From contig NC_016051.1 in the NCBI RefSeq assembly GCF_000151205.2, positions 248,001-312,000 on the forward strand: 64,000 nt of DNA. Direction: 5' to 3'. The notes below the pieces were generated by a model. That model was given only the letters and a program-made list of their open reading frames with translations. It searched no databases and had not been told where the DNA came from. Of the stretch, positions 1,624 to 24,034 are shown in pieces. This stretch comes from Thermococcus sp. AM4 (lineage in GTDB: Archaea; Methanobacteriota_B; Thermococci; Thermococcales; Thermococcaceae). Both the position numbers and the translations under genes were made by a program. The stretch's first letter is position 1. Each line of letters starts with the position of its first letter.

Positions 1624-2769
1624 TTATTCTCCAAACTCCTCCGCCCACTTCTCGTATTTCTCGATGTTTTTCCGCGTCAGCGGGCTCTTAATTCTCCTAA
1701 AAGATGTCTCAAAATCCTCCATTTCAAGGGGCCTGACCTTCAGCCTGAGATCCTTGACTTCCATGCTCGAGAGCCTTTCCAGGTCGGCGAGCTCTGGATT
1801 GACGTCTTCGAGCATGTGATGAATGGCCATGCTACACAGGTTGGCTATCTCCCTGCCCGAGTACAGCCGTCTAACGCTCTCCTCAGCTATGACATTGAGG
1901 TCAAGCTTTGAGATGTCCAGCCCCCGGGTGTGTATCTTCACGATTTCCCTGGCGGCTTCTTTGTCCGGTAGGGGCACGTATATCCTCAGCGGAAACCTGC
2001 TGAGTAAAGCCTCATCTAAGTCCCACGGCGTGTTCGTCGATGCCAGTGTGAGAACGAACTTTTCTTCCCCTCCCTTGAAGCCGTCTATCTCTGCCAGAAG
2101 AGTGGCCAGAGTCCTCCGGGTCGCCTCATGGACGTTCTCCCTTTTTAGGCTCAATGCATCAACCTCATCGATGAAAATTATGCTCGGTGCTTTTTCTTTT
2201 GCAATCCCATAGAGGGCGCTTATCAGTTTCGATGACTCACCGTAGTATTTACTCAGAACGTCGCTGGCCTTGACGTTGAAGAACGTCGCCTTCAGGCTTC
2301 CCGCGGCTGCACTCGCTAGGAGGGTCTTCCCCGTCCCCGGCGGGCCGAAGAGCAGGATGCCCCTCCAGGGCTTTATTGCTTCAGGCTTCTTCGCGAAGGC
2401 GAGCGCGACGTTTTGGGCCAGAAGCTTTTTCACCTCGTAGAGTCCACCGATGTCCTTCCACGTGACGGCCGATTTTGATATGAGCCCCTCAACGTAGGAA
2501 CGGTACTCATCTTCGAGGCCCGTCCGCTGAACGTTGCCAGGGGATGCCGTGCTTGGAGGCTTTGATTTAATCTCTTTAGCAGCCCTCTCCCAGCTCTCCG
2601 CCTTTTCCAGGTAGAACTCCCTCTTCCCCGGGACTTTCTCGGCGAGAACCCTGAGGATCCGGGCGCACTTGAGGGCGTATTCCCTCGCGGCCTCAAAATG
2701 GCCCCGCCCGAGGGCCCTTTCGTACTCCCTTTTGCACTCCTCAAAAAGGGATAGGTAGAGGGACTGCAT
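1624..2769 (-). CDS. Vps4/CdvC-like AAA ATPase with MIT-like N-terminus
   Basis: 381 aa. Residues about 1-75 form a small three-helix, Ala- and Tyr-rich region resembling an MIT domain. The AAA module follows a short linker, with Walker A GPPGTGKT near residue 140, Walker B IIFIDEVDAL near 196, a sensor stretch ASTNTPWDLDEALLSRF, and a C-terminal helix KYEKWAEEFG like that of Vps4-type ATPases. Known Vps4/CdvC enzymes pull ESCRT-III filaments apart through MIT contacts. The gene follows the Snf7-like gene at 2771 by one base, which suggests translational coupling, and it is a clear paralogue of 11080-12285. Start ATG with AGGGG site. The AAA assignment is firm; the membrane-remodelling role is inferred from domain order and neighbours. 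Confidence 0.88.
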   Translation of the reverse strand: MQSLYLSLFEECKREYERALGRGHFEAAREYALKCARILRVLAEKVPGKREFYLEKAESWERAAKEIKSKPPSTASPGNVQRTGLEDEYRSYVEGLISKSAVTWKDIGGLYEVKKLLAQNVALAFAKKPEAIKPWRGILLFGPPGTGKTLLASAAAGSLKATFFNVKASDVLSKYYGESSKLISALYGIAKEKAPSIIFIDEVDALSLKRENVHEATRRTLATLLAEIDGFKGGEEKFVLTLASTNTPWDLDEALLSRFPLRIYVPLPDKEAAREIVKIHTRGLDISKLDLNVIAEESVRRLYSGREIANLCSMAIHHMLEDVNPELADLERLSSMEVKDLRLKVRPLEMEDFETSFRRIKSPLTRKNIEKYEKWAEEFGE

Positions 2770-2770: not shown

Positions 2771-3337
2771 TCAACCCCTCATCGCATCTTCGATCTGCTT
2801 CAGCCTGCTCTTTGGCTCGAGATCAGAAGACGCCGAGGCTTCAAACAGTGCCGTTGCCTCCTCCACAGTCTCGGCGTCAAAGTCTCCCGTCAGGATGCTC
2901 TCGCTCGTCAGGTCGAGCATCGTGCTCAAAGCCTCATCCAAACCTTCAACCTTCGTCATGGCCTTCTCGAACTCCACCTGCATCTTTGCTATGTCCTCCG
3001 CCCCGGGCCCCTCCGCTATGCTCTCCACGATGTCCCTGCTGAACTGGATGAAGTTGGCAGAGACCTTTACGAGCTCCCTCTGGATTTCCGCCTCCTCCAT
3101 GAGGAGGAGCAGCCTCTTCGCCTGTTTTATCCTCTCCTCAAGCGCGAGGTACTTCATTGCGCTCCGCTTTAGGAGAGCCTCGTCACCGAGTTTCGCCGCC
3201 TCCTTTCCCTGGAGGAAGACCTTCCTTTTCAGGGCTTCGAGGTTGTTGATGTACTGTTTGAGGGCCATTTTGGCCTTCCTCATCCTGACCTTGCGCTCGA
3301 TCTCCTTTTCCTCTTTGGACTTCCAGAACCGAACCAC
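2771..3337 (-). CDS. ESCRT-III/Snf7-like coiled-coil protein
   Basis: 188 aa. It opens with a basic segment holding aromatic residues (VRFWKSKEEKE), continues as a long basic coiled coil to about residue 110, and becomes acidic toward the end. This is the charge layout of Snf7/CHMP proteins. The last residues, with SRLKQIEDAMRG, resemble a MIM-type helix that MIT domains bind. It sits directly before a Vps4-like ATPase and directly after a receptor kinase, all tightly packed. Start is a GTG at 3337, overlapped by the ribosome site inside the end of the kinase gene. No enzymatic motif is visible. Alternative: an unrelated coiled-coil protein; a structure or profile comparison would decide. Confidence 0.65.
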   Translation of the reverse strand: MVRFWKSKEEKEIERKVRMRKAKMALKQYINNLEALKRKVFLQGKEAAKLGDEALLKRSAMKYLALEERIKQAKRLLLLMEEAEIQRELVKVSANFIQFSRDIVESIAEGPGAEDIAKMQVEFEKAMTKVEGLDEALSTMLDLTSESILTGDFDAETVEEATALFEASASSDLEPKSRLKQIEDAMRG

Positions 3338-3341: not shown

Positions 3342-6300
3342 TCACGCCCCGTTCTCCCTCTTTATGTTGTGAACCAAAACCTTAAGCCTTTCTATGAGGT
3401 CGTCGCTCAAGGGGAGGTTCTCTTTGATGAGAAGCTCCACCGTGCTTATCGCGTTGGTAAGATCGGCAAGGTTCTGAACCGTGTAGAACTTGAGGTCGTT
3501 GAGGGTGTTCAAAAGCTCGGCCTTTCTGTTGAGCTCTGCGTAAGCCAAAGCCAGCCTGCCGAGGGTTTCGACCACGAGCCTTCTGTTCCTGAGGGCCTCT
3601 TCCGGAGTGGTGCTCCGTTTGAGGGCCTGAATGCTCTTTGAGAGGGTCTTCTTCAGCTCCTCAACCTCCTTCTCCAGCTCGGCCCTCTTCCTCTCGATCT
3701 CCTCAAGTCTTTCGAGGTCCCTCAGGAACTCGTCAACGGACTGGTAGCGATCCTCCTTCCTCTTTGCCAAAAGCTTCTCGAAGATACCGTCGTACTTGGC
3801 AAGAGCGGGGTTGATCTTCGAGGGCGGCGTGAAGCGGTAGCTTTCATCGGTTATCTTGCCGAAGACCTCCTCGTAGGTGTAGCCCTCGAAGGGCAGTTTG
3901 CCGGTTAAGAGTTCGTAGAATGTAACGCCCAATTGCCAGATGTCCGTTCTATGGTCTGTGTGCCCGTACTTGCCCGGCATCAGGTGTTCGGGAGAAGCAT
4001 AGAGCGGCGTGTAGCCGAGGACGCTCCTGCTTGAGCTCATTGTCCCGAGCTTCGCCAGCCCCCAGTCGGTTATCTTGGGTGTTAGGTCGGCTTTGAGAAG
4101 GACGTTGAGCGGTTTGAGATCACGGTGATAGATGCCCTTTGAGTGCGCGTGCCTGAGTCCCTCGGCGATGCCCCTGATGAGCTTTAGGGCAATCTTTTCG
4201 TCTACAGGCTTGGGGTAACCTCCGAGATCCCTGACGGTTTTTCCATTAACCTTCACGCCCTCGACGTACTCCATCTCAAGGTACGGGATGGGGAGTATGT
4301 CCACGTCGTAGAGTTTGACAATGTTCGGGTGATCAAGGTGGAGCCAGGTTGAGACCTCTTTGATGAAGGTTTTGCTGGTTCTCTCGTCTATGCGCGGGAT
4401 TTTCAGGGCGACGATTTTACCGTCTTTCTTCTTCTTGGCTTTGAATACTTTGGCGAAGCCTCCTTCGCCTATGAATTCGAGGGGTTCATATTTATCCAAG
4501 AGCGCAGACGGGAAGCCGGGGATGGGTGATTCCTTCCGTGGGACTGGCTTTGAACTTCCTTCTGTTCCATCTCTTTCTTGTTTTTCTGCTGTTTCTTTTG
4601 TCTCTTTTGGAGGTTTCTCAGGTTTCTTCCTCACGGCTTTTGCTGCTATGCCGCCGATGAGGATGAGGCCGATAAAGGCTCCTGCAAGGTAGAGGGGGTT
4701 AAGTTTTGATCCTCCTGAGGTTTGGGCTGGTAAAGTTTCTGAACTGGAGGCAGGAGGAATCGTTGTAGTGGTAGTTGTTGGTGTCGAGCTTGTGGTGGTA
4801 GTGGTTGTTGTTGAACCGGTAGTGGTCGTAGTTGTAGTGCTTGACGTGGTTGTAGTTCCTGAGGTTGTGGTGCTTGAAGTTGGTGGAGAGATGAGTACGA
4901 GGGAAGCACTCAACGTTTTCTTTTCTCCTGCCGTGATGGTTACGATTTTCGTATACTCCTTGTAACCGTCCTTTTTGATCTTCACTTCATGCTCGCCTGG
5001 AGAAAGCTTGTAATCGGTTATGGGGGTCTCGCCGATGGAGTTACCGTCAACGTAAACTTCTGCACCAGAGGGGGAGGAGTCAACACTCAGATAACCATAT
5101 GCTGGCTTTAAGGTCGCCGAGATAGCTTTTGTTTTCCCGGGGGAGATGGTTGTTGTCGTTGTGTAGTCCTGATAACCGTTCAGGGTGAGCCTTATTGTAT
5201 AACTCCCGGGTTCGAGTTCTAAAGTCAATGGAGTCACGCCCTTGTAAGTGCCGTTGATGTAAACTTCAGCCCCACTGGGCTGGCTGGTGATTTTTAGCGT
5301 TCCAGGAAGGAGTGTTAGGGTTGCCTTCACACTGGCGGTTTCACCGGGTTTGATGGTCACGCTCTTTACGAACGGCTGATAACCACTCTTCTCCACTTTC
5401 ACCTCGTGCTCGCCAGTGGGGAGTTTGTAATCCTCCAAGGGTGTTTCTCCGATGTAATTCCCATCAACGTAGACTTTAGCGCCTGAGGGTTCTGACGTGA
5501 CGCTCAAAAATCCGAATTTCGGAGTTAGCGTTATTGATAGGCTCTTAACATCTCCCGGCGAGAGGGTTACAGTTTCAGTGTAATCCTTGTAATCTTGCCT
5601 GGAGAGTTTTATCGAATAAGAGCCGGCCATTAAATCAAGAGTCAAGGGTGTTTCACCCTTGTAAGTACCGTTAACGTAAACACTCGCTCCAGATGGGTCA
5701 GATTCAATAGTTAAGTGTGCATAATTTGGATTTAGGGTAATGTTTAGTGTTTTAGTCTCGTTTGGCTGGAGGGTGATGGTTGTTGAGTAATCGTAGTATC
5801 CATATTTGGTGAGTTTTATCGAGTAAGTCCCCGGCTGGAGTTCGTAGTTTGAGAGGGGGGTCGTGCCGGCGTAAGTTCCGTTGATGTAAACTTTGGCTCC
5901 TGGCGGGTTTGAGTTAATCGTTAAATGCGCTGGAAGGAGTGTTAGATTGACGTTGAGGGTCGTCTCCTCTCCGGGTTTTATCGTCACGGTTGTGGTGTAG
6001 TCTGTATAGTTTTCTTTTTTGAGCGTGACCTCGTAGGTTCCTACTGATAGGTTCGTGGTGAGTGGGGTTGTTCCGGCGTAGGTTCCGTTAATGTAAACTT
6101 CAGCTCCAAGGGGATTTGTGGTGACGCTGAGGGTTCCGATGGAGATGTATTGAGTCTTCACTGTAGGATTCCACGGGTTGAAATAGGCATAGGTGGTTTG
6201 CACGTTTGCGTTGGTATCTTGAACTGTCGCGCTGGAATCACTCACCTGAACACTCGGAGTGGTAATCCGTGCATTGTAATTCCCGCAGAGGTTGCAGTAG

Positions 6301-7400
6301 AGCAGGTTTCCATCCGGCGGGAGACGGAGAACCCAAACGTCATAACCACCAGCGCCGAAGCTCCAAGTTTCACCTGCGGCAATAATATCCCCGTTTTCTG
6401 CAATGGCAACCGCGTTGGCCCGATCATAATCGCTTCCGCCGTAGGTTTTTTGCCATTTGATGTTTCCGTTCTCGTCAAGCCTAAGAACCCAAAAGTCATA
6501 ATCGCCAGCGCCAAAGCTGTTAGTGTAGCCAGCCACTATAATGTCCCCGTTTGGCGCGATAGCAACCGCGCGAGCCTCATCCCCCCAGCTCCCGCCGTAA
6601 GTCTTCTGCCATTTTACGTTCCCATTCTCGTCCAGGCGAAGAACCCAAACGTCGCCACCATAACCGCCAGTAACGATTATATCCCCGTTTTCAGCTATTG
6701 CAACCGCGTTGCCATTAATATTTTTTGTCCAGATTACGTTTCCGTTCGCATCAAGTCGCATCGTAAAAGAACCCGTGACAACAATATCTCCGTTCTCAGC
6801 GAGAGCAACCGCAGAAGCCCCACTTCCTCCGTATGTTTTTTGCCATTTCACGTTTCCCTCGCTGTCAAGCCTGAGAACCCAAATGCCTCCAGCACCGAAG
6901 CTGTAAGTTCTTCCAGCCACGACGATGTTCCCGTTGGGAGCTATAGCAACGGCGTGGGCGCCATCAATATGACTTCCTCCGTATGTTTTTTGCCATTTCA
7001 CGTTACCATTCTCGTCCAAACGAAGAACCCAAACATCACTACTAGCGCCGAAGCTGTCAGTGTAACCAGCTACTATAATGTCCCCGTTCTCTGCAATGGC
7101 AACCGCGAAAGCCACGTCTCCCCTACTTCCGCCGTAAGTCTTTGCCCATTCCACGTTACCCTCAGACGAAAGCTTCATTACAAGGACATCGTCGCTACCA
7201 GCTCCATTTGAATCAGTGGAACCCACAGCGATAATGCTCCCATCCGGTAGAACCTTAACGTCATTGATAACGTCATCACCGCTACCGCCATAGCTCTTGA
7301 CCCAGTAAACCTGACTCCCATCGGCTTTAATCCCGGGGGCACTGACTCCCAACAGGGCAACCGCGATCAGCAGGACCAGCGCAACTGGGAGTTTCCTCAT
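3342..7400 (-). CDS. Surface receptor Ser/Thr kinase: SBBP propeller, six PEGA domains, one TM, Hanks kinase
   Basis: 1352 aa. Order: signal peptide (1-26); about seven beta-propeller repeats (to about 375) with the recurring WQKTYGG and DVWVLRLD blocks; a CxxC plus short repeated motif; six PEGA domains (about 420-833) with the SGAEVYVNG type core; a Thr-rich, probably glycosylated stalk (about 836-886); one TM helix (about 900-922); a cytosolic Hanks kinase (about 969-1220) with GEGGF loop, VALKIP lysine, HRDLKPLN (catalytic Asp1094) and DWG instead of DFG; then a coiled coil and the helical tail shared by the kinases here. The N-terminus should be outside the cell and the kinase inside. 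Likely ligand: a cell-wall or extracellular polymer, since PEGA domains are surface modules; unproven. Start ATG with GGGGGTGGTGG site. Confidence 0.9.
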   Translation of the reverse strand: MRKLPVALVLLIAVALLGVSAPGIKADGSQVYWVKSYGGSGDDVINDVKVLPDGSIIAVGSTDSNGAGSDDVLVMKLSSEGNVEWAKTYGGSRGDVAFAVAIAENGDIIVAGYTDSFGASSDVWVLRLDENGNVKWQKTYGGSHIDGAHAVAIAPNGNIVVAGRTYSFGAGGIWVLRLDSEGNVKWQKTYGGSGASAVALAENGDIVVTGSFTMRLDANGNVIWTKNINGNAVAIAENGDIIVTGGYGGDVWVLRLDENGNVKWQKTYGGSWGDEARAVAIAPNGDIIVAGYTNSFGAGDYDFWVLRLDENGNIKWQKTYGGSDYDRANAVAIAENGDIIAAGETWSFGAGGYDVWVLRLPPDGNLLYCNLCGNYNARITTPSVQVSDSSATVQDTNANVQTTYAYFNPWNPTVKTQYISIGTLSVTTNPLGAEVYINGTYAGTTPLTTNLSVGTYEVTLKKENYTDYTTTVTIKPGEETTLNVNLTLLPAHLTINSNPPGAKVYINGTYAGTTPLSNYELQPGTYSIKLTKYGYYDYSTTITLQPNETKTLNITLNPNYAHLTIESDPSGASVYVNGTYKGETPLTLDLMAGSYSIKLSRQDYKDYTETVTLSPGDVKSLSITLTPKFGFLSVTSEPSGAKVYVDGNYIGETPLEDYKLPTGEHEVKVEKSGYQPFVKSVTIKPGETASVKATLTLLPGTLKITSQPSGAEVYINGTYKGVTPLTLELEPGSYTIRLTLNGYQDYTTTTTISPGKTKAISATLKPAYGYLSVDSSPSGAEVYVDGNSIGETPITDYKLSPGEHEVKIKKDGYKEYTKIVTITAGEKKTLSASLVLISPPTSSTTTSGTTTTSSTTTTTTTGSTTTTTTTSSTPTTTTTTIPPASSSETLPAQTSGGSKLNPLYLAGAFIGLILIGGIAAKAVRKKPEKPPKETKETAEKQERDGTEGSSKPVPRKESPIPGFPSALLDKYEPLEFIGEGGFAKVFKAKKKKDGKIVALKIPRIDERTSKTFIKEVSTWLHLDHPNIVKLYDVDILPIPYLEMEYVEGVKVNGKTVRDLGGYPKPVDEKIALKLIRGIAEGLRHAHSKGIYHRDLKPLNVLLKADLTPKITDWGLAKLGTMSSSRSVLGYTPLYASPEHLMPGKYGHTDHRTDIWQLGVTFYELLTGKLPFEGYTYEEVFGKITDESYRFTPPSKINPALAKYDGIFEKLLAKRKEDRYQSVDEFLRDLERLEEIERKRAELEKEVEELKKTLSKSIQALKRSTTPEEALRNRRLVVETLGRLALAYAELNRKAELLNTLNDLKFYTVQNLADLTNAISTVELLIKENLPLSDDLIERLKVLVHNIKRENGA

Positions 7401-11079: not shown

Positions 11080-12285
11080 TCACCATCCCCCAAACTCCTC
11101 CGCCCACTTCTCATAGCGCTCGATGTCCTTCCGCGTCAGCGGGCTTTTGATCTTCTTGAAAGCGGCCTCGAAGTCCCTCATCTCAAGCGGTCTTGTCCTC
11201 AGCGAGCGCCTCCTGAGCTTCTCGTAGGGCAGTTCCGCCAGCTTGTGGAGGTCCGGGTTCTCCTCGCGGATCATGTTCCATACCGCCTCCTGGCAGAGGT
11301 TCTTGATGTCCCTTCCGGAGTAGAGCCTTCTGACGCTCTCCTCCGCTATGGCATCGAGGTCGAGCCGGCTTATGTCGAGCCCGCGTGTATTGATCTTGAT
11401 GATCTCCTTCGTGGCTTTCTTGTCGGGCAGGGGAACATAGATCCTCCTCGGAAACCTCGACAGTACGGCCTCGTCGAGATCCCAGGGCGTGTTGGTTGCC
11501 GCCAGCGTCAGGACGAGTACATCACTTCCCTTGTCCTGGAAGCCGTCGAGTTCAGTCAGCAGGGTGGAGAGCATCCTCCTGCTCGCTTCACTCTGATCGC
11601 CGGAGCGCTTCGTCGTCAGCGCGTCTATCTCGTCCATGAAGACTATGCTCGGCGCCCTCTCCCGCGCCACCTCGTAGAGGGCCGAGATTATCTTGGTGGA
11701 CTCGCCGAAGTACTTGCTCAGAACGTTGCTGGCCTTAACTGAGAAGAAGGTCGCGTTCAGGCTTCCGGCGGCGGCGCTCGCGAGGAGAGTCTTACCGGTT
11801 CCAGGCGGACCGAAGAGCAGAATACCCTTCCAGGGCTGGATGGACTGGGGCCTCTGAAGGGCCGAGATGACGACGGTCTCCATTATCAGCCTTTTCACCT
11901 CATCAAGCCCACCGATGTCGCTCCACTTGACCTTCGACCTTGCGATGAGGTTCTCCACGTAGCGCTTGAACTGGTCTTCCTCGTCCACGCTCGCCTCACT
12001 TCCTCCTTTGCCGCCTTTCCCGCCTTCCTTCACCGGCTTGTGTTTCCTCTTCGCCCCGTAGCGGCCCTCCTCGACCTCCTTCGCTATCACCTCCCACTTC
12101 TTCGCCTTCTTCAGGTAGCTCTCGCAGTTGAACTCGTCGTACTTCGAGAGCTGCTTCAGTATCCTCGCGCACTCAAGGGCCTTCTTCCGGGCGGTTTCCT
12201 TATCCCCTTTCTTTATGGCATCCTCAAACTCCCTCTTGGCCTTCCTAAACGCTGACAGCAGGGGTCCGGACAGATCGACGGGCAT
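11080..12285 (-). CDS. Vps4/CdvC-like AAA ATPase with MIT-like N-terminus (second copy)
   Basis: 401 aa from the ATG at 12285, which has a GGAGGTG site; a longer frame to 12351 would overlap the upstream kinase and lacks support. It has an MIT-like three-helix region (1-75), a Lys/Gly-rich linker, Walker A GPPGTGKT near residue 157, Walker B IVFMDEIDAL near 215, the TNTPWDLDEAVLSRF stretch and a C-terminal KYEKWAEEFG helix. It matches the 1624-2769 protein nearly residue for residue through the AAA core and C-terminus but has a longer linker. It sits between a cytosolic kinase and the receptor-like gene. Partners are expected to be the Snf7-like proteins of this locus. Confidence 0.88.
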   Translation of the reverse strand: MPVDLSGPLLSAFRKAKREFEDAIKKGDKETARKKALECARILKQLSKYDEFNCESYLKKAKKWEVIAKEVEEGRYGAKRKHKPVKEGGKGGKGGSEASVDEEDQFKRYVENLIARSKVKWSDIGGLDEVKRLIMETVVISALQRPQSIQPWKGILLFGPPGTGKTLLASAAAGSLNATFFSVKASNVLSKYFGESTKIISALYEVARERAPSIVFMDEIDALTTKRSGDQSEASRRMLSTLLTELDGFQDKGSDVLVLTLAATNTPWDLDEAVLSRFPRRIYVPLPDKKATKEIIKINTRGLDISRLDLDAIAEESVRRLYSGRDIKNLCQEAVWNMIREENPDLHKLAELPYEKLRRRSLRTRPLEMRDFEAAFKKIKSPLTRKDIERYEKWAEEFGGW

Positions 12286-12337: not shown

Positions 12338-15205
12338 CTAAATCTGCTCAAAGCCCAGGCCCACCTTGTGCGCTATTACCTCGGCCTTCGCGAGGAGTTC
12401 CTCGCCTGCGAAGTTCAGCCCCTCCTCAAGGCGGACCTTTATCTGCTCCGCTAAAGCTTCCACGTCCCCGCTGAGCTCTCCTCGCGCGTAGAACTTCAGA
12501 TCGCTCGCGTACTTGTAGGCTTCCCTGAGGTTGCCCATCTTGAGGAACATCAACATCAGCTTGCCCGCGTAGAAAGCCGCCCTTGGGGCGTCGTTTAGGG
12601 TTATTGAGCGCTTCAACGCCTCTTTATAGCGCACGCCGAGGTAGGTCGCCAGCTCGAACTGGAGCTCGGCAACTGACTGGTAGCGCTCCTCCATGTCCTT
12701 TCGGAGGCAGGTGAGGATGATGTGCTCGACGTCTTTGGCCTCCGGATTGAGCTCGCCCGGCGGGATTGGCTCGTCGGTGGCTATCCTCGAGACGACCTCA
12801 ATCAGGTCGTCGCCCTCGAACGGCAGCCTTCCGGTGACGAGCTGGTAGAATATTACTCCTAACTGCCAGATGTCGCTCCTGTGGTCGGGCTTTCCAAAAC
12901 GGCGCGAGGTCTGTTCAGGAGAGGCGTAGAATGGAGTGAAGCTGGCCAGGGTTGTTGAATGGGTCTCGGCCATGGCCTTGCTCAGTCCCCAGTCGGAGAT
13001 TTTTGGTGTGCCGTTCTTGAGGAGAATGTTTGAGGGCTTTAAATCGCGGTGGATTATGCCCCTGCTGTGGGCGTACTTCAGGCCTTCCGTTATGTTGAAG
13101 ACGATGTATGAGGCGACATCAACGGGTAAAGGCTTGGGGAGCTTTTCAAGTGAAGATTCGCAGTACTCCATCTCGAGGAATGGAATCGGGAGAATGTTGG
13201 CATCGTAGAGGCGAACTATGTTCGGATGCTTCAGGTGGAGCCAGTTGGTTATCTCTCTGAGGAACGCCCTTCCGGTGTTCTCGTCGAGGCTGAGCGGGAT
13301 TTTGACGGCGACTATCTTTCCGTCCTTTCTCTTTGCCTTGTAAACCCTTGCGAAGCCGCCCTTTCCTATCAGCTCGACGTCGGTGTATCTGTAGGCCAGC
13401 TGGGGCGGGAAGTCGGCAGGAAGCTGAACTCCAGCGGGGGAAGGTGTTGGAGTTGGGGTGATTGGCTGGGGTGTCGGCGTGGCCGGGGTGACGGGTGTTG
13501 GTGGTGTGGCATAGGCTTGAGCCGTCCTCTCTGCGACCTCAACTGGAATGACCTTTTCAGTTTCAAGCTCGATGCCGTCCGCGATGGCTTTGATTTTAAT
13601 ACGGAAGTCGAAGTTGCCGGCGTACTTCGGCGTTACGGCGAGGCTCTTAGAGACCTTTTGGCCTTTCTTCAGCTCGGGGAATTCCAAAGTTGTGGTTTCG
13701 AGGTCGAGGAAGTCGTTGGCTGAGAGGTCAAGGGTGAGTTTTAGGGATTTGGCAAAGTCGTTTTTTGCAGTGAGCTTGAGGATTGAATCAACGCCTTCGA
13801 CGAGCCCCGGAACCGAGAGGGTGAGGGAGTTTTGAACGTTTTGTTTGAGGGGTTCCAAATCGAGGTAGTACTGGACATTGGGGGTTACGTTGAGGGATTT
13901 AACGACGGCTTTTGAGTCCATGACGATAAGAGAGACCTTCTTGGTGCGCCACTCTTTTCGTTTTTTCATCTCTTTCTTTGTTCGTTTGAAGATTGTTCCA
14001 ACTTTAACTTCAACTTCGTATTCCACTTCAACCTGATACTTACTGACACCGCTCAGGACTTCACAGTGGGTGTTGTGAATTTGGACATTAGTGTCCATTA
14101 CTTGAGCGTCAGAATTACCACAAAAGTCACACTCAGGCAGGTTTCCGTCCGGCGGAAGCCGAAGAATCCAAACGTCACCATAACCAGCGCCGAAGCTTTT
14201 AGTCCAGCCTGCTACGATAATGTCACCGTTCGGTGCAATGGCAACCGCGTGAGCCTCATCCCCGTTACTCCCGCCGTAGGTTTTCTGCCATTTCACGTTA
14301 CCATTCTCATCCAAACGAAGAACCCAAACGTCACTCCTACCAGCGCCGAAGCTGGTAGTGCCTCCAACCACGATGATGTCGCCGTTAGGAGCTATTGCAA
14401 TCGCTTTAGCCTTATCGTACCATTCTCCTCCGTAGGTTTTCTGCCATTTCACATTACCATTAGCATCAAGCCTGAGAACCCAAGCATCATCTTTGCCAGC
14501 GCCGAAGCTGTCAGTCCAGCCGGCCACGATGATGTCGCCGTTAGGAGCCAAAGCGAGAGCATACGCCTCATCCCACTTAGAGCCACCGTAGGTTTTCTGC
14601 CACTTAACGTTACCATTATTATCCAACCGAAGCACCCAAACATCATACTCACCAGCGCCGAAGCTTTTAGTCCAGCCTGCTACAATAATGTCCCCGTTTG
14701 GGGCAATGGCAACCGCGTAAGCCTCATCATAATCGCTTCCGCCGTAGGTCTTCTGCCACTTCACGTTACCGTTGGAATCCAACCTAAGAATCCAGGCATC
14801 CCAACCACCGGCGCCAAAGTGATCAGTATAACCGGCAACTATAATGTCTCCGTTCGGAGCAATGGCAACCGCCTCAGCATGATCGGTGTAGCCTCTCCCG
14901 TAGGTTTTCTGCCACTTAACGTTACCATTATTATCCAACCGAAGAACCCAAACGCTGCCGGCAGCGCCGAAGCTTTCAGTGTAGCCTGTTACTATTATGT
15001 CCCCGTTTGGGGCAATCTTCACATCATTGAACCAATCATTTTTGTCCCCACCGTACGTCTTGAACCATTTCACGTTCCCGTCCTTGTCAAGCCGAGCCAC
15101 GAAGCCGTCTCCTTCCCTTTCCCCAACAACAATAATGTCCCCGTCCATATCAACAGCCACAGCCTTAGCTTCGCCCGGCCCGTACGTCTTGGCCCAGTAC
15201 GACAT
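12338..15205 (-). CDS. Cytosolic SBBP-propeller Ser/Thr kinase
   Basis: 955 aa. There is no signal peptide and no TM helix, so the propeller (about 1-352, seven WQKTYGG-type repeats) should be inside the cell, unlike its secreted relatives. A CDFC motif and short repeated motif follow, then a CARDB-like beta domain (about 435-561), a Pro/Thr linker (565-592), and the kinase (about 603-850) with GKGGF loop, VAVKIP lysine, HRDLKPSN (Asp721) and DWG. It ends with the shared helical tail. The ATG at 15205 overlaps the TGA of the nucleotidyltransferase gene by one base, with a GGAGGTGG site. A TTG one codon upstream is a less likely start. Confidence 0.88.
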   Translation of the reverse strand: MSYWAKTYGPGEAKAVAVDMDGDIIVVGEREGDGFVARLDKDGNVKWFKTYGGDKNDWFNDVKIAPNGDIIVTGYTESFGAAGSVWVLRLDNNGNVKWQKTYGRGYTDHAEAVAIAPNGDIIVAGYTDHFGAGGWDAWILRLDSNGNVKWQKTYGGSDYDEAYAVAIAPNGDIIVAGWTKSFGAGEYDVWVLRLDNNGNVKWQKTYGGSKWDEAYALALAPNGDIIVAGWTDSFGAGKDDAWVLRLDANGNVKWQKTYGGEWYDKAKAIAIAPNGDIIVVGGTTSFGAGRSDVWVLRLDENGNVKWQKTYGGSNGDEAHAVAIAPNGDIIVAGWTKSFGAGYGDVWILRLPPDGNLPECDFCGNSDAQVMDTNVQIHNTHCEVLSGVSKYQVEVEYEVEVKVGTIFKRTKKEMKKRKEWRTKKVSLIVMDSKAVVKSLNVTPNVQYYLDLEPLKQNVQNSLTLSVPGLVEGVDSILKLTAKNDFAKSLKLTLDLSANDFLDLETTTLEFPELKKGQKVSKSLAVTPKYAGNFDFRIKIKAIADGIELETEKVIPVEVAERTAQAYATPPTPVTPATPTPQPITPTPTPSPAGVQLPADFPPQLAYRYTDVELIGKGGFARVYKAKRKDGKIVAVKIPLSLDENTGRAFLREITNWLHLKHPNIVRLYDANILPIPFLEMEYCESSLEKLPKPLPVDVASYIVFNITEGLKYAHSRGIIHRDLKPSNILLKNGTPKISDWGLSKAMAETHSTTLASFTPFYASPEQTSRRFGKPDHRSDIWQLGVIFYQLVTGRLPFEGDDLIEVVSRIATDEPIPPGELNPEAKDVEHIILTCLRKDMEERYQSVAELQFELATYLGVRYKEALKRSITLNDAPRAAFYAGKLMLMFLKMGNLREAYKYASDLKFYARGELSGDVEALAEQIKVRLEEGLNFAGEELLAKAEVIAHKVGLGFEQI

Positions 15206-15972
15206 CAAACCACCTCCAGCCCAAGGGCCTCTTTAATCTCGTCAATCCTCATGAGAAGGCCTTCCCTATCAAAGGGAAGACCGACGTGGTTCATGATGAC
15301 GGTTGCAACGTCCATAAGCTCCCTGCTTTCCCCTGAAAAGAACCTCTCAACGTGCTCGAATGAGAACGGCTTAACCCTGTAAAGCTCCTTAAATACATCG
15401 AATTTCAGCTCTGGAGCGCCCATTAATAGCGAGTACAGGTCAACCATGTCCTTCCAGTGTTTCTCCCTCTTCTCGTCTGGATATGCGGGGTTGGAGTATA
15501 TGTCGAGCTTTAGAACTATGAGCGCTTCAGGGAGAACCATGTTAAGGTCTCCGGAGAGAGCCTCAAACTTGAAGGTTTCGAGGGAATAGTACTGCTTTTC
15601 AAATATCGGCCCAACGTAGGGACTCTCGAAGCTCAGCTCGCTCGGCTTCCTGTCAAAGAGCAAATCAACGTTAAGTCTCTCTTCAAGGAAAGGAAGCTCT
15701 TCATCTCTAATTGCCTTGAAGTACCTAAAGCCCGAACTTTGATAGCCAAGCTCCCTTAGCCTTGAATCAACTCTCTTGAAGTCCTCCAGCCTAACGAGGA
15801 AGTCCACGTCAATCGAGGGAACTCCTGTTAAGCCCCACTTGGTGACCCAGTGATAAACCCCCCATCCCCCAGCAAGCAGAATGTTCAATCCCTTGGCTAT
15901 ACTGAGCATGTCCTCTATCGAAGCCCTGATTAGGGGACTGCTGGGGTTTCTCAAGGTTTTAATCTCCTCCAT
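15205..15972 (-). CDS. AbiEii-like nucleotidyltransferase (probable toxin)
   Basis: 255 aa. The N-terminal half has the polymerase-beta nucleotidyltransferase signature: LAGGWGVYHW followed about 15 residues later by DVDFLV. AbiEii toxins of type IV toxin-antitoxin pairs share this GG...DxD layout and a helical C-terminus. It overlaps the upstream winged-helix gene by 14 bases and its stop overlaps the kinase start, so it is co-translated with both. Family membership is read from motifs; toxicity is inferred from the pair. It could instead be a housekeeping nucleotidyltransferase recruited to this locus. Confidence 0.7.
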   Translation of the reverse strand: MEEIKTLRNPSSPLIRASIEDMLSIAKGLNILLAGGWGVYHWVTKWGLTGVPSIDVDFLVRLEDFKRVDSRLRELGYQSSGFRYFKAIRDEELPFLEERLNVDLLFDRKPSELSFESPYVGPIFEKQYYSLETFKFEALSGDLNMVLPEALIVLKLDIYSNPAYPDEKREKHWKDMVDLYSLLMGAPELKFDVFKELYRVKPFSFEHVERFFSGESRELMDVATVIMNHVGLPFDREGLLMRIDEIKEALGLEVV

Positions 15973-16716: not shown

Positions 16717-18057
16717 TTATGATATGTTTGAAATGTTTAGCTCGTACCTGACGCTCCTCCCGGTTCCGCCCATTCTCTTGAGTATCCCTTTTTCAACGAG
16801 GTCTTTCAAATCTCTGGCCGCTGTAACCGGCGAAACTTCAAACATCTCCCTGTACTCCCTGTTCGTTATGCTTCCCTTCTCCTTCACGTAGAGAACGGCC
16901 TTAACCTGCCTCTCGTTGAGCCCAAGCTCCCTCAGCCTCTCCTCGGTCAGCCAGTCCCTGTAAAAGACCACCTGAAAGCCCCCGAAGGCCTCCTTAAACT
17001 CTGGCCTCGGCAGTTTGGCCTTCTCAAATGCCCTCAGAATCCTCAGCGTTCCGCTGCCCCACTTCTCAACGTAGCCGGCAAGATGGAAAACCTCGGCGAT
17101 GAGCCTGTTCCTCGGCTTCGATGGGTGCTCGCGGTAGAGGTCTTCCTCGGTCAGACCGATGGGAAGACCGCCGGGGTTCCAGAAGATTATCCTTTCGTCG
17201 AGAATCTTTATCTGCACCTCCTCGGGCATCCTGTAGTCCCTGTGCATCACGGCGTTTACCACTGCCTCTCTCATGGCCTCAAGGGGATAGTCCCAGATCT
17301 CTTCCCTCACCAGCCCCCTTATCACGTACCTTCTGCTCATGTGCTTCTTTATCGCGCTCACCGCTCCCTCGACCTGCTCGAAGAGGTTTCCTTCAACGTC
17401 AACCGAGTCGAGGATTTCGCTGCCCTTAAACCTTCCAACCCTCACCTTCGCCTGCGGGAAGAACCACTGGGGGTCTCTGCCGAAGAGCAGAATCAACGCC
17501 CTCGTAACCTTCCCGTCCCTAATCGGCCTGAGCTTTTTGAGAACCTCAATCTCGTCGTCGCTCGGCAGGTTCGCCCTTCTGATGAACTCTCTCACCTTAT
17601 CCAAATCAACGTCGTCGAGCGTGGCATCAACCGGATAGGCATCCCAGCTCAGCCCGACGCTCTCCTCGAACAGCTCCGAGATTTCCTTTGGGGTGAGCTT
17701 TCTGTTCGAGTTGCCAACCCTCCTGTAGGCTCTGCCCTTCACCATCACGGGCTTCACGGGATGCTCATCAACCTCTATCACTATCACGTCCTTACCGCCG
17801 CACCTCTCGACCCTGAGCCTCGGTATAACCTCCGGTTCGGTGTTCTGGGCTATCTCGTTGGCGAGCTTCGATAGCGTTTCCTTTCCAAGCTGAACGCCCA
17901 TCACTTTCTTATCTTTATCGCGGACGCCGATGATTATCACGCCGCCGTGAGTGTTGGCGAACGCCGAGACCGTCTCCAGTATGCGCTTTACGTCGATGTT
18001 TTCCTTGAACTCGACCCGCTCATTTTCTCCCGGTTTTATAAGCTTGCACACGTTCAT
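16717..18057 (-). CDS. Schlafen AlbA_2-domain regulator with winged helix
   Basis: 446 aa. The N-terminal AlbA_2 domain shows ENERVEFKENID and the block AFANTHGGVIIIGVRDK. A central region with MREAVVNAVMHRDY and WNPGGLP matches the ATPase-like HATPase_c_4 part of this family, and the C-terminus is a winged helix (SPVTAARDLKDLVEKGIL). Such proteins are annotated as predicted transcriptional regulators or helicase-related proteins; DNA binding is expected. The ATG overlaps the stop of the tandem kinase gene (ATGA), so it is the last gene of block B and translationally coupled to it. Confidence 0.85.
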   Translation of the reverse strand: MNVCKLIKPGENERVEFKENIDVKRILETVSAFANTHGGVIIIGVRDKDKKVMGVQLGKETLSKLANEIAQNTEPEVIPRLRVERCGGKDVIVIEVDEHPVKPVMVKGRAYRRVGNSNRKLTPKEISELFEESVGLSWDAYPVDATLDDVDLDKVREFIRRANLPSDDEIEVLKKLRPIRDGKVTRALILLFGRDPQWFFPQAKVRVGRFKGSEILDSVDVEGNLFEQVEGAVSAIKKHMSRRYVIRGLVREEIWDYPLEAMREAVVNAVMHRDYRMPEEVQIKILDERIIFWNPGGLPIGLTEEDLYREHPSKPRNRLIAEVFHLAGYVEKWGSGTLRILRAFEKAKLPRPEFKEAFGGFQVVFYRDWLTEERLRELGLNERQVKAVLYVKEKGSITNREYREMFEVSPVTAARDLKDLVEKGILKRMGGTGRSVRYELNISNIS

Positions 18058-21000
18058 TTCGACAGCGCCTCCCCCTCAATCCTCAGCACAAGCGCCCTTA
18101 CCTTCTCTTCAACCTCCGGGCCTATTGGAATGCCCTCTTTGAGAAGAAGCTCCACCTGGGCTATCGCACTCAGCAAATCGTCGAGGTTCTCGCGGGTGTA
18201 GAACTTTAGATCGTCCAGCGCCGCCAGAAGCTCCGCCTTGTCGTTCAGCTTGGCACTTAGAATGGCAATCTTCACGGTTTTGCGAATGCTCTCAATCCTC
18301 AACCTTTCAAACTCTTCACGTGAGCGGCTTTTCTTCATGGCTAAGCTCGTCTTCCTAAGCTCCTCTTTCTCCCTCTCCAGCTCTGTTAGGGATTCCAGAG
18401 CGGACAGAAACTCCTCAACGCTCTGATAGCGCTCTTCCTTCCTCTTCGCTAGGAGCTTTTCAAAGACTCCGTCAAACCTCTTGAGCCCCGGCTTGAGCTC
18501 GGAAATGGGCTTTGGCTTTGCGTAGAGGATTTTACCGACGAGGGCACCGGGAGAAGTTGCCCTATACGGGAGTTCGCCTGTCAAGAACTCATAGAGAATT
18601 AGACCAAGCTGGTAGATGTCAGTCCTGTGGTCCGGCTCCCCGAAGGTCTCCTCGTCAAGCTGTTCGGGAGCGGCGTAGAGCGGGGAGTAGCCGTAGTGCC
18701 TGCTCAGCGAGCTCCTCGCGCTTATCTTCGCCAGTCCCCAGTCCGTTATCTTGGGCGTCAGGTCGGCTTTGAGAAGGACGTTGAGCGGTTTGAGATCGAG
18801 GTGGTAGATGCCCTTTGAGTGAGCGTGGGCTAATCCCCTGGCAATGTCCGTGATGAGCTTTAAAGCGGTCTTCTCATCAACGGGCTTTGGATACTTCTCA
18901 AGGTCTCTGACGAGCTTCCCATCAACCTCAACGCCCTCGATGAACTCCATCTCAAGGTACGGAACCGGCAGAATGTCTGCCCTGTAAAGTCTTACTATGT
19001 TCTCGTGGTTAAGGTTGTACCATGCAGCAACCTCCTTGATGAACAGCCCGCTGGTCTTCTCGTCTATTCTGGGTATCTTGAGGGCAACGATTTTGCCGTC
19101 CTCTTTTCTGCGAGCTTTGAAAACTTTTGCAAAGCCGCCTTCACCGAGGAACTCAAGGGGCTCATAGCGTGAGAGAAGGGCAGAGGGGAAGCCTTCCACC
19201 GTCTTGGTCTCTTTTGCTGGCTTTGATTTTATGGCTTCATCAAGTTTAGCCTTGACCTCCGGCTTCTCAGCTCTAGCTTCGGGAAGAGATTGAGCAAATG
19301 CCTCTGCAACCCTCTCCGGCACCTCAATCTCCGGGATTACGGCCTTCTTTATCCAGTCGAGAATTTCTATGAGCCACTCTGATGGGATAATGCCGCTCTC
19401 TCCCGGCCCACGGGAGACTATGTTCCGCGTCACGAAGAGGTTTTCGCCCTCGATGATGTCCTTGAAGGGATGAACTGTGATTTCGTCGGGAAGGGGTTGG
19501 ATGAAGTCAATACTGCTCAGCTCTTTGTCCAGCTCTTCCAGCGCCGACTTCAGACCGGCTTCGTCCATAACCATGGCCTTCACGATGTAGCAGCGATTGT
19601 TGATGAGGTAGCCGGGGCAGGGTTTTTTGATCGATTTTTGTTTCTGTGGGTGTATTACTTCTGTTTCTTTAATACCTTCTACCTCGATTCTTTTTGGGAC
19701 ATTCTCTAGATCCTTTAACAGCTCGTTCACGTTTTTGTATCCAAGTCTTATTTTGTGGGTTATTATTTCGGCTTTTTCTATTATTTCAGGCGGTATTGTC
19801 AAACCATCTTTGAGCCTGAATTTGATTTGCTCGACAAGTTTTTCCACTTCTTGCTTTAACTCGCCCCTTGTATAAAAAACTAAATCACTCGCGTACTTGT
19901 AAGCCTCACGAGCATTGTTCGTCTTCAAGTTAATCAGCAAGAGCTCAGTAAGGTAGAAAGTAATCCTCCCGACATCACCCTTGCTCTTTCTCAAGCTTTC
20001 AGAGTAAGTCAAGTTCAAAATCCTCGCAAGGTCACGCTGAAGCTCTTCAACACTCTGATACCTCTTACTCTTATCCTTCTCAAGCATCTTCATTATGATT
20101 GGCTCAACTTTCTTTGCCTTGGGATTAATTTGGCTTGGTGATGTTGGCTTTTTGCTCAGAATCCCGTGCAGAACTTCACTCAATGAACCCTCAAAGGGTA
20201 ACCTGCCAGTAACCAGTTCATAGAAGATTACTCCAAGCTGCCAAATGTCCGTTCTCTCATCGATCGAGCCAAATCTTCTGTTTATCTGCTCTGGTGCGGC
20301 ATAGAGTGGCGTGAAGGAAGTGATTGTGGAGTCGCTTTCTGTGACGACCTTGCTGAGTCCCCAGTCACTTATCTTTGGAGTTCCATCCTTGAGAAGAATG
20401 TTGCTGGGCTTTAAATTACCATGAATTATACCTTTCGAGTGAGCGTACTTTAAGCCCTCGGCAATGTTAAAGACGATGTAGGAAGCTACCTCAACGGGTA
20501 AAGGCTTGGGGAGCTTTTCGAGAGAGCTTTCGCAGTACTCCATCTCAAAGAACGGGATTGGAAGGATGTTGTAGTCATAAACCCTGACGATGTTCGGATG
20601 CTTGAGCTTAGTCCAGTTCCCTATCTCACGAAGGAAGGACTTTCCGGTTGTCGGGTCAAGGCTTATTGGGATTTTTACAGCCACTACTTTGCCGTCCTTT
20701 CTCTTTGCCTTATACACGCGAGCAAAACCACCCTCGCCAAGGAATTCTAGCGACTCATAGCGGAAGAGAAGGGCCGATGAAATGTTGTCCTCGACTTCAA
20801 CCTTTCTGGCTGAAGGGGAGAGGGAGAGCCTCCCTTCAGGCTCCCACTCGCAGAGGATTTTGACCTTTGGAATCGCCGTTCTGATGGTGGCGGTTGTGTT
20901 GGTGATTTTGACGTATTCCTTGCGGAAGAATCCGGGCTTGAGCGGCGGAACGGTTACCTTGCATTTTGTGTTCTTGACGACAGCGTTGGTGTCCATGACT

Positions 21001-22166
21001 ATTGCGTTCGAGTCTTGGCAGAGCTTACAGCTGGGCAGGTTTCCATCTGGTGGAAGGCGGAGAATCCAAACATCGTCACCGAAGCTCCGAGTGTAGCCAG
21101 CCACTATAATATCTCCGTTCTCAGCTATTGTAACCGCATTGGCCTCATCGTAATCGCTTCCCCCATAGGTTTTCTGCCAGATTACATTACCATTCTCATC
21201 AAGCCTAAGAACCCAAACATTACCCTTTCCAGCTCCAAAGCTTCCGGTGTGACCTGCTATGATTATATCATTATTTGGAGCTAAAGCAATAGCATTAGCT
21301 ACATCATAATTGTTTCCTCCGTATGTTTTTTGCCATTTCACATTACCATTCTCATCTAGGCAAAGAACCCAACTATCCCATTTTCCAGCTCCAAAGCTTC
21401 CGGTGTGACCTGCCACAATAATGTCTCCGCTAGGAGTAACAACAGCCATAGAAGCCTCGTCTTGATTACCCCCGCCATATGTTTTTTGCCATTTTATGTT
21501 CCCATTACTATTCAGCCTGAGAATCCATGCATCCAATGTTTTAGCCCCAAAGCTGTAAGTGTATCCTATCACAATGAGGTCTCCATTTGGAGCTAACACA
21601 ATGGAATTAGCAAAGTCATCTTTATTCCCACCAAAAGTCTTCTGCCACTTAATGTTTCCTTCGCTATCAAGCCTGAGAACCCATATATCACAATTCCATC
21701 CAGTACTAAAGCTCCAAGTATAACCAGCTACAATAATGTCCTCGTTCTCAGCTATTGTAACCGCATTGGCCTCATCGTAATCGCTTCCTCCATAGGTCTT
21801 CTGCCATTTTACGTTGCCATTCTCATCAAACCTAAGAACCCAAACGTCACTTTTTCCAGCGCCGAAGCTCTCAGTGGAGCCAACAATAATAATGTCTCCA
21901 TTTAGAGCTATCTTCACATCGTTAAACTTATCATCCTTGCTTCCCCCTAGAATCCTCACCCACTTTACGTTCCCCTCTTTATCAAGCCTTGCCACAAGCC
22001 CGTTGCTCTTAGTGTTTTCCTTTTTCGGCTTAATGCTCCCGGCAACCACTATATCCCCATTCGGCATCAGCGCAACGGCCTTAGCTTCAGCTTCCATCCC
22101 CTCAAACTCATACGCCTTAATCCAGTACTTCCTATCGGCGGTCTCCGAGATTGTGACGGGCTTCAT
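18054..22166 (-). CDS. Propeller protein with tandem pseudokinase and kinase domains
   Basis: 1370 aa, no signal peptide or TM. Order: SBBP propeller (about 1-375); CKLC and short repeated motif; kinase-like domain 1 (about 465-725); the shared helical tail; an insert holding a CPGYLINNRCYIV motif; kinase domain 2 (about 998-1255); the shared tail again. Domain 1 has the GEGGF loop, VAVKIP lysine and DWG, but HRD is replaced by His582-Gly583-Asn584, so the catalytic base is missing and it is predicted inactive. Domain 2 keeps the catalytic Asp (H1122-L-D1124) but lacks the Arg, a non-RD kinase. The start ATG has GGAGGG directly beside it and overlaps the TGA of an upstream remnant frame, so the start is less certain. 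Pseudokinase control of the partner domain is inferred. Confidence 0.88.
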   Translation of the reverse strand: MKPVTISETADRKYWIKAYEFEGMEAEAKAVALMPNGDIVVAGSIKPKKENTKSNGLVARLDKEGNVKWVRILGGSKDDKFNDVKIALNGDIIIVGSTESFGAGKSDVWVLRFDENGNVKWQKTYGGSDYDEANAVTIAENEDIIVAGYTWSFSTGWNCDIWVLRLDSEGNIKWQKTFGGNKDDFANSIVLAPNGDLIVIGYTYSFGAKTLDAWILRLNSNGNIKWQKTYGGGNQDEASMAVVTPSGDIIVAGHTGSFGAGKWDSWVLCLDENGNVKWQKTYGGNNYDVANAIALAPNNDIIIAGHTGSFGAGKGNVWVLRLDENGNVIWQKTYGGSDYDEANAVTIAENGDIIVAGYTRSFGDDVWILRLPPDGNLPSCKLCQDSNAIVMDTNAVVKNTKCKVTVPPLKPGFFRKEYVKITNTTATIRTAIPKVKILCEWEPEGRLSLSPSARKVEVEDNISSALLFRYESLEFLGEGGFARVYKAKRKDGKVVAVKIPISLDPTTGKSFLREIGNWTKLKHPNIVRVYDYNILPIPFFEMEYCESSLEKLPKPLPVEVASYIVFNIAEGLKYAHSKGIIHGNLKPSNILLKDGTPKISDWGLSKVVTESDSTITSFTPLYAAPEQINRRFGSIDERTDIWQLGVIFYELVTGRLPFEGSLSEVLHGILSKKPTSPSQINPKAKKVEPIIMKMLEKDKSKRYQSVEELQRDLARILNLTYSESLRKSKGDVGRITFYLTELLLINLKTNNAREAYKYASDLVFYTRGELKQEVEKLVEQIKFRLKDGLTIPPEIIEKAEIITHKIRLGYKNVNELLKDLENVPKRIEVEGIKETEVIHPQKQKSIKKPCPGYLINNRCYIVKAMVMDEAGLKSALEELDKELSSIDFIQPLPDEITVHPFKDIIEGENLFVTRNIVSRGPGESGIIPSEWLIEILDWIKKAVIPEIEVPERVAEAFAQSLPEARAEKPEVKAKLDEAIKSKPAKETKTVEGFPSALLSRYEPLEFLGEGGFAKVFKARRKEDGKIVALKIPRIDEKTSGLFIKEVAAWYNLNHENIVRLYRADILPVPYLEMEFIEGVEVDGKLVRDLEKYPKPVDEKTALKLITDIARGLAHAHSKGIYHLDLKPLNVLLKADLTPKITDWGLAKISARSSLSRHYGYSPLYAAPEQLDEETFGEPDHRTDIYQLGLILYEFLTGELPYRATSPGALVGKILYAKPKPISELKPGLKRFDGVFEKLLAKRKEERYQSVEEFLSALESLTELEREKEELRKTSLAMKKSRSREEFERLRIESIRKTVKIAILSAKLNDKAELLAALDDLKFYTRENLDDLLSAIAQVELLLKEGIPIGPEVEEKVRALVLRIEGEALSK

Positions 22167-22417: not shown

Positions 22418-24034
22418 TTATGTGCTGAGGTCATGCACGAGCACCTCCACGCGCTCAATCAGCTCTTCGGGAATCGGAAGCCCCTCTTGGAGCCGGATTT
22501 CAAGCTCTTCAATGAGCCTTTCAAGTTCCTTCCTCGCTTCTCCTCTCGCGTACCTTCTCATTTCGAGGGCGCATTTGAGGGCCTCTTTCGTATCGTTGAG
22601 CTTCATGTGGAGGAGGAGCAGCTGACCCGCGTAGTAGGCCGAGCGTGAGAAATCAACGCTTTTCCTGAGCTTCTCGCGGTATCTGCCGCCTAAAAGATCT
22701 GCCAGGTCCTTTTGGAGCTCCTTGACCGATTGATAGCGCTCCTCCTTCCTCTTTCTGAGGCACCGTAGTATTACCGGCTCGAGGGGCTTTGCGTCGGGGT
22801 TCAGCTCGCTCGGCGGCACTGGGTCTTCCATCGTGATTTTCCCGGCTATCTCGACGAAGTCCTCGCCGTCGAAGGGAAGCCTTCCGGTGACGAGTTCGTA
22901 CATGAGAACACCGAGCTGCCATATATCGGTCCTCTCGTCGGTTTTTCCGAAGCGTTTGCTTATCTGCTCCGGAGCCGCGTAGAGGGGTGTAAACGACGTT
23001 GTCGTTGAGCTGCTCTCCGTTACGACCTTGCTCAGTCCCCAGTCGCTTATTTTGGGAACGCCCTTCTTGAGCAGAACGTTGCTCGGCTTCAGATCACGGT
23101 GGACTATGCCCCTTGAGTGTGCGTACTTCAACCCCTCGCAGATTCCGAAGGCAATTTCCGCAACCTTCTCCCAGTGAAGGGGTTTCTCCAGTCTCGCGAG
23201 CGAGCCCTCGCAGTACTCCATCTCTAAATACGGGATTGGAACGATGTTTGCGTCGTAGAGCTCCACGATGTTCCTGTGTTTCAGTCCGCTCCAGATTGAT
23301 ACCTCGCGCAGGAACGTTTTTCCAGCCTGCTCGGTTAGATGGTGGGGGATCTTGAGGGCGACGATCTTACCGTCCTCTTTTCTGGCCTTGAAAACCCTCG
23401 CGAAGCCACCCTCTCCTATCGGCTCGACCTCTGAGTAGCGGGAGAAGAGTGCCCGCAGATCCGGGACGACGTAGCCCTCTCCCCCTTCTATCGGGACTTC
23501 ACGGGCCTTTCTCCTCACCTTCACGCTCTTTTCCGTCTCGACCCCGATCACGACGGGAACCCTGACCCTTGTACTCCCGGATCTCACCTCAAGGTCCACC
23601 GTGAGCGTTCCCCCGCTCCTTGGAGTGAACCTGACGAAGGAGTACTCCATCTCTCCCGGCCCCAGCGAGAACCTCAGCCGGGCCGGGAAAACCTCGCCGT
23701 ACCCTTTGAGGCGTTCGAGGTTGATCTCAACGTCTATTCTCCTGGAGGAGCTGTTTCTAAAGCCCACCTTGAGCTTCCCCTCGTTTCCGGCCCTGAGCCC
23801 GCGAGCCTCGAATATCAGGCCCCTTCTCAGCAGGGCCGGAAGGGTGACGGCGGATAGAACGTCCTCGACCGGGGAAAAGCCGGATCTCTCAAGCTCCCGG
23901 ATGATCTCGCGGATGAGCGGCATAAAGATGAAGATCGAGATGAGTAAGCCTAACTCCTTCAGGAGGTACACGAGGAAAATGGAAATGAGGAGGCGACGGA
24001 GGAAGTCTTCTCCAAGGTTTTGTTTTTGTGGCAT
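22418..24034 (-). CDS. Membrane-anchored Ser/Thr kinase
   Basis: 538 aa from the ATG at 24034 (GGGGG site); an upstream TTG frame to 24067 is less likely. The N-terminus (about 13-44) is hydrophobic and can span the membrane once or twice. Residues about 80-165 look like a beta-sandwich of the CARDB/Ig type, and the kinase runs from about 197 to 440 with GEGGF loop, VALKIP lysine, HRDLKPSN (Asp314), DWG and a Ser/Thr-rich activation segment ESSSTTTSFTPLY. The shared helical tail closes it. It lacks a propeller. It lies 57 nt downstream of the PP2C gene, suggesting joint expression of kinase and phosphatase. Confidence 0.88.
   Translation of the reverse strand: MPQKQNLGEDFLRRLLISIFLVYLLKELGLLISIFIFMPLIREIIRELERSGFSPVEDVLSAVTLPALLRRGLIFEARGLRAGNEGKLKVGFRNSSSRRIDVEINLERLKGYGEVFPARLRFSLGPGEMEYSFVRFTPRSGGTLTVDLEVRSGSTRVRVPVVIGVETEKSVKVRRKAREVPIEGGEGYVVPDLRALFSRYSEVEPIGEGGFARVFKARKEDGKIVALKIPHHLTEQAGKTFLREVSIWSGLKHRNIVELYDANIVPIPYLEMEYCEGSLARLEKPLHWEKVAEIAFGICEGLKYAHSRGIVHRDLKPSNVLLKKGVPKISDWGLSKVVTESSSTTTSFTPLYAAPEQISKRFGKTDERTDIWQLGVLMYELVTGRLPFDGEDFVEIAGKITMEDPVPPSELNPDAKPLEPVILRCLRKRKEERYQSVKELQKDLADLLGGRYREKLRKSVDFSRSAYYAGQLLLLHMKLNDTKEALKCALEMRRYARGEARKELERLIEELEIRLQEGLPIPEELIERVEVLVHDLST

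Follow-up and report, generated by a model that had tools for sequence, protein, structure and literature searches.

The analysis of a 64,000-nt stretch of the Thermococcus sp. AM4 genome (hereafter, the window) outlined what is probably an ESCRT system of the euryarchaeal 'Main clade', in which the protein SnfA would act as an ESCRT-III subunit with a tail captured by MIT domains, undergoing remodelling by an AAA ATPase and switching by kinases and a phosphatase, in the service of sorting or budding. The SnfA gene and its immediate neighbor, which encodes the ATPase VpsA, comprise the following features:

1624..2769, minus strand: VpsA, an ATPase with MIT, AAA and Vps4_C domains, paralogous to VpsB and lineage-specific (Pfam, MIT model, tree)
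2572..2766, minus strand: MIT domain of VpsA, with helices at residues 2-22, 25-45 and 47-66 (predicted fold, PDB matches)
2771..3337, minus strand: SnfA, predicted ESCRT-III (Snf7/CdvB-like) subunit of 188 aa (Pfam Snf7, AlphaFold2, Foldseek)
2774..2824, minus strand: candidate MIM1-like motif of SnfA, residues 172-188, DLEPKSRLKQIEDAMRG (alignment, regional pN/pS, motif frequency)

The SnfA reading frame opens with a GTG codon, and in the alignment its relatives start at the same residue with either ATG or GTG. The protein presents a net charge of +13 over residues 1-80 and of -16 over residues 81-188, in agreement with the 188-residue protein with a basic coil and an acidic tail described in the first-pass annotation of this DNA. 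The pN/pS of the SnfA core (about 0.08-0.11, rough values given that synonymous sites are near saturation) reveals strong purifying selection, and SnfA is therefore a real gene. A single base separates its TGA stop codon from the ATG of VpsA, as had been noted from the sequence, and this junction is not particular to the window: a VpsA-like reading frame lies 1-2 nt after SnfA in 11 Thermococcales loci, identified in a survey in which L014, L016, L021, L025 and L030 were drawn in the wrong orientation; the SnfA alignments were built on coordinates put right for this. No Vps4 gene lies directly 3' of SnfA in the remaining Thermococcales loci examined, and the SnfA-VpsA coupling is therefore lineage-specific.

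VpsA matches the Pfam AAA (1.4e-37) and Vps4_C (9.9e-8; 32.3 bits versus a cut-off of 21.3) families, both above cut-off, and phylogenetic analysis identifies it as a monophyletic paralogue. Its first 66 residues form three predicted helices with the MIT domain of Sulfolobus solfataricus Vps4 (2v6y) as best PDB match (rmsd 1.6) and a Z of 10.8 against 2w2u, an archaeal ESCRT-III/AAA complex entry. The MIT-like start that had been proposed for this ATPase is hence borne out at the level of predicted fold. The Pfam MIT profile yields weak matches in the VpsA family (three of 18 relatives, best E 0.034), and a profile search of the MIT segment against PDB sequences returned only unrelated helical proteins.

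Family profiles, predicted fold, synteny and the literature support the assignment of SnfA to the ESCRT-III (Snf7) family. All 30 Thermococcales relatives of SnfA match Pfam Snf7 (best E 4.5e-6), as does a relative from Geoglobus (E 1.2e-4). In a search of the complete genome, a single contig of 2.09 Mb, SnfA and its putative paralogue SnfB were the best two Snf7 matches (E 0.006-0.007), with the third two orders of magnitude weaker (E 0.65); the same type of search yields E-values of 5e-11 to 0.01 in 26 Nitrososphaeria genomes for the matches taken as their CdvBs. The AlphaFold2 model of SnfA (pLDDT 82.8) encompasses helices at residues 8-50, 53-107, 113-150, 155-169 and 175-187, the last of low confidence, and the first four reproduce the long alpha1-alpha2/3 hairpin followed by alpha4 and alpha5. 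Speaking against the assignment, a Nitrososphaeria CdvB profile detected SnfB but not SnfA. The hhalign comparisons of SnfA with SnfB, SnfC or Nitrososphaeria CdvB were uninformative, and profile searches against PDB sequences with the SnfA or SnfC alignments returned no matches. The predicted helix order of SnfA, its basic core and acidic tail, the short conserved helix at its extreme C-terminus and its MIT-AAA partner resemble those of Asgard and eukaryotic Vps2/24/46 (CHMP1-3) proteins and Vps4, although sequence identity to the former is low.

The MIM1 motif has the consensus (D/E)xxLxxRLxxL(K/R) at the C-terminus. The SnfA tail presents the related motif (D/E)xxPxxRLKxIExxM, with a core (RLKxIExxM) kept in nearly all relatives, including three from another phylum. 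Positions 178, 179, 182, 183 and 186 are 88-97% conserved in the SnfA alignment, versus 35-75% for most neighboring positions, and the pN/pS of the motif (0.18) falls between those of the linker (0.34) and the core (about 0.1), values that are again rough because synonymous sites approach saturation. The motif is present in the relatives from the other phylum at 51-59% protein identity; those three, from the Halobacteriota, carry an isoleucine at its first hydrophobic position. A relaxed pattern derived from MIM1, applied to the C-termini of a test set of 551 reading frames of at least 200 aa, recovered the SnfA proteins and one unrelated reading frame. In the Thermococcales copy of genome G089, SnfA is frameshifted ahead of the tail and the motif can still be read in another frame. 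The last two SnfA codons (AGG GGT, R187-G188) resemble a Shine-Dalgarno site for VpsA, and the conservation of these two residues in VpsA-coupled genomes was accordingly discarded as evidence for a MIM.

The MIM-like C-terminal helix anticipated by the first-pass annotation thus stands as a conserved, selected and predicted-helical motif, but its agreement with MIM1 is imperfect. The D/E, R and L positions of the consensus are matched and the last L position is hydrophobic, whereas P175 replaces L and E183 replaces K/R, so that the Asgard and eukaryotic consensus is confronted with DxxPxxRLxxIE in SnfA. From the sequence, the tail may be read as a loose MIM1 or, equally possibly, in an alternative register defined by L179, I182 and M186. 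Published work reports that crenarchaeal CdvBs use MIM2 and lack MIM1 and that their Asgard homologues carry MIM1, which has been treated as an Asgard-eukaryote trait (PMC7240154); among the Cdv proteins of Euryarchaeota, a 2022 survey described none with an interaction motif (PMC8970359). Given the reported lack of MIM1 in crenarchaeal CdvBs and of any motif in that survey, the SnfA tail is a potentially new element: it may represent a MIM1-like tail outside Asgard archaea and eukaryotes, located on an accessory third subunit that in some genomes has acquired a Vps4 of its own.

A different role for this helix, in which SnfA is an ESCRT-III subunit whose C-terminus folds back onto the core in auto-inhibition or binds another cluster protein instead of MIT, is possible but rather doubtful. 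A predicted helix following an acidic linker is also what closed ESCRT-III presents, the MIM1 match is imperfect, and the motif is retained where SnfA does not adjoin a Vps4 gene; the genomes in question, however, still carry VpsB in the same operon. Furthermore, a stand-alone relative in a Nitrosothermus MAG (L100, 9968-10522; 58% identity) has kept the core and lost the tail, as expected of a tail that binds a partner. None of the cluster genes was found in the 12 kb read around this copy, and SnfA occurs in only one of 120 genomes of the class Nitrososphaeria, suggesting that this orphan was probably transferred or reflects contamination.

Capture of the SnfA tail by MIT domains would take place in the context of a larger locus. 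SnfA and VpsA define one end of a cluster of roughly 31 kb, in which many genes overlap or abut, that also contains SnfB, SnfC, VpsB, Ser/Thr kinases, a PP2C phosphatase, a coiled-coil protein and a small 176-aa protein:

3342..7400, minus strand: membrane Ser/Thr kinase that carries propeller and PEGA repeats and lies 4 nt upstream of SnfA (Pfam; TM segments)
11080..12285, minus strand: VpsB, the MIT-AAA-Vps4_C ATPase that the cluster conserves (Vps4_C 2.1e-8; synteny survey)
12338..15208, minus strand: propeller-Ser/Thr kinase (Pfam)
18054..22166, minus strand: protein with two Ser/Thr kinase domains (Pfam)
22418..24067, minus strand: Ser/Thr kinase with one TM segment, of the type retained in the minimal operon (Pkinase 8.8e-49; synteny)
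24092..26683, minus strand: PP2C Ser/Thr phosphatase with TM segments (Pfam PP2C 7.2e-23; TM prediction)
26699..28666, minus strand: Ser/Thr kinase (Pfam)
29283..29897, minus strand: SnfB, second ESCRT-III-like subunit, with hydrophobic N-terminus MSFFSRFFGKKNP (Snf7 profile, CdvB profile)
29894..30493, minus strand: SnfC, third ESCRT-III-like subunit, SnfB paralogue (~30% identity to SnfB, hhalign probability 98.7)
30790..32625, minus strand: coiled-coil protein, probably of the arCOG09748 type (coiled coil and C-terminal winged helix; arCOG inferred from the published description), kept in the cluster, with the layout given in the text of PMC10936438
32618..33148, minus strand: 176-aa protein, probably of the arCOG08177 type (Cas2-like and TBP-like; arCOG inferred from description and position), kept in the cluster

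SnfB is the best match of the CdvB profile among 1284 reading frames, and 23 of 30 SnfB relatives match Snf7 (best E 2.3e-4); a profile search with SnfB against PDB sequences returned only unrelated helical proteins, and SnfC did not match Pfam Snf7. The two genes (29283-30493) lie in tandem and overlap, and their products, which have no obvious MIM1, share a conserved C-terminal element (xVxxGExxxExxxxK). In a genome lacking SnfA (G020), SnfB and a portion of the coiled-coil gene seem to form a single in-frame fusion (L087, 9331-11322), probably what a deletion has left of the cluster.

Six kinase genes fall within about 35 kb of the window (3342-7400, 12338-15208, 18054-22166, 22418-24067, 26699-28666 and 33469-38055), and in several of them propeller or PEGA sensor parts are repeated. 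Such an expansion is unusual next to the one-kinase operon of relatives. The cluster also encloses genes for a nucleotidyltransferase, an HTH protein and an AlbA_2/Schlafen protein (15205-18057). The nucleotidyltransferase and HTH pair adjoins VpsB in L096 as well, and might constitute a toxin-antitoxin-type insert. L096 derives from a MAG labelled Archaeoglobus and was set aside, its cluster being 76-80% identical to those of Thermococcales and likely a mis-binned contig or contamination.

The comparative analysis identified SnfA in 30 of 94 Thermococcales genomes and SnfB in 39, with the system present in about 40% of them. A compact version (L073-L076) encompasses the 176-aa protein, the coiled-coil protein, SnfC, SnfB, a kinase, VpsB, PP2C and SnfA, and nearly the same gene set was detected in a genome (L138) from the phylum of Geoglobus (Halobacteriota). 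Another genome of that phylum (L136) presents only the 176-aa and coiled-coil types, SnfA and an AAA ATPase with its first Met ~22 nt after SnfA, and others contain SnfB, SnfC and VpsB in the absence of SnfA. These variants, with and without SnfA, indicate an accessory role for SnfA as third subunit, with VpsB as the constant motor, and VpsB must also act without the SnfA tail in the genomes devoid of it. The initial suggestion that SnfA and its neighbor repeat the ESCRT-III/Vps4 partnership is supported as to the two identities by profiles, folds, synteny and the literature, and needs amending as to the unit: what is conserved is a multi-gene cluster, not a two-gene pair, and its constant Vps4 is VpsB (11080-12285).

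The 'Main clade' euryarchaeal ESCRT system was reportedly first noted by Makarova et al. in 2010. In the main text of their 2024 paper, Makarova et al. describe it in Thermococcales and other lineages as composed of Vps4, ESCRT-III, arCOG09748 (helical, with coiled coil and winged helix), arCOG08177 (Cas2-like and TBP-like), membrane kinases and a phosphatase (PMC10936438). The window likewise contains MIT-Vps4, ESCRT-III, a coiled-coil protein, a 176-aa protein, membrane Ser/Thr kinases and a phosphatase, and all four 'Main clade' gene kinds are present and syntenic at the locus, with arCOG numbers that derive from the published descriptions and not from profile assignment. The layout of the cluster fits the published description, and this kind of system is already known. 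It departs from the published account in that the text of that paper does not mention MIM motifs or describe three ESCRT-III paralogues or a second Vps4 beside SnfA (PMC10936438). With CdvB and CdvC of Sulfolobus the Thermococcus proteins share the ESCRT-III fold, the MIT fold and gene proximity, but the cluster adds kinases and a phosphatase and the SnfA tail loosely resembles MIM1, where crenarchaeal CdvB reportedly uses MIM2.

The patchy distribution of the cluster could be taken to indicate an anti-phage or stress system, with kinases and an ESCRT-like effector, instead of a sorting machine, yet this appears improbable. The kinase profiles do overlap those of defence kinases (PD-T4-6 and MAD6 among them), but these matches span only the generic kinase domain. 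A PADLOC search identified no ESCRT-related defence match, with SnfA, SnfB and SnfC all lacking PADLOC matches, and the published context, as given in the text of the 2024 paper, suggests sorting or vesicle formation for such systems (PMC10936438).

It is very unlikely that SnfA is simply a basic coiled-coil protein, BAR-like or a generic hairpin, that owes its ESCRT-III likeness to general helical composition. Two observations would be compatible with this: taken alone, the window SnfA scores below the curated Snf7 cut-off (E 0.0039, 17.3 bits versus 27.3), as many archaeal CdvBs do, and VIA-align, while superposing its model on CHMP2A-CHMP3 (rmsd 2.1 over 107 aa) and on Snf7, ranks BAR domains and dynein at similar or higher Z, with helical bundles scoring alike there. 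Against it, shuffled and reversed SnfA controls did not match Snf7, which is the sole Pfam family common to all SnfA relatives, and SnfA is located in an ESCRT cluster. Moreover, the best eight Foldseek matches of the model in PDB are all S. islandicus CdvB or CdvB2, with a probability of 0.97-1.00 (versus 0.80 for BAR), though at weak E-values (0.04). A role in cell division as in Sulfolobus, suggested by homology to CdvB and CdvC, is likewise very unlikely, since FtsZ-family genes are found in 94 of 94 Thermococcales genomes, most of them without SnfA or SnfB, and a system confined to about two fifths of the order is probably not the division machine.

For SnfA as a 'Main clade' ESCRT-III subunit, the basic helical hairpin would most likely polymerise on the inner face of the membrane, alone or with SnfB and SnfC. 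The MIT domain of VpsB would then capture the acidic region and C-terminal helix, as would that of the co-translated VpsA in genomes that have it, allowing the AAA hexamer to extract subunits and remodel the polymer. The membrane-bound kinases and the PP2C phosphatase would probably switch assembly or cargo choice, and the system as a whole probably serves in sorting or budding at the cell surface, not in cell division. A review cites an unpublished result that would count against this reading, whereby single deletions of Vps4 homologues in T. kodakarensis left vesicles unaffected (PMC10117752).

The locus contradicts the statement in a 2021 review that Thermococcales are devoid of ESCRT-III (PMC10117752), in agreement with Makarova et al. 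2024 (PMC10936438), and provides a testable counter-example to motif-less euryarchaeal Cdv proteins (PMC8970359) and to MIM1 as an Asgard-eukaryote feature (PMC7240154). It is plausible, albeit still tentative, that SnfA bears a genuine MIM1 binding an archaeal MIT domain outside Asgard archaea and eukaryotes, in which case the MIM1-MIT pairing would predate Asgard archaea or have arisen independently, and that the duplicated Vps4 operates as a dedicated, co-translated motor in some Thermococcus. The Thermococcales include cultivated, genetically tractable members, making direct tests of kinase-controlled, non-division ESCRT systems possible.
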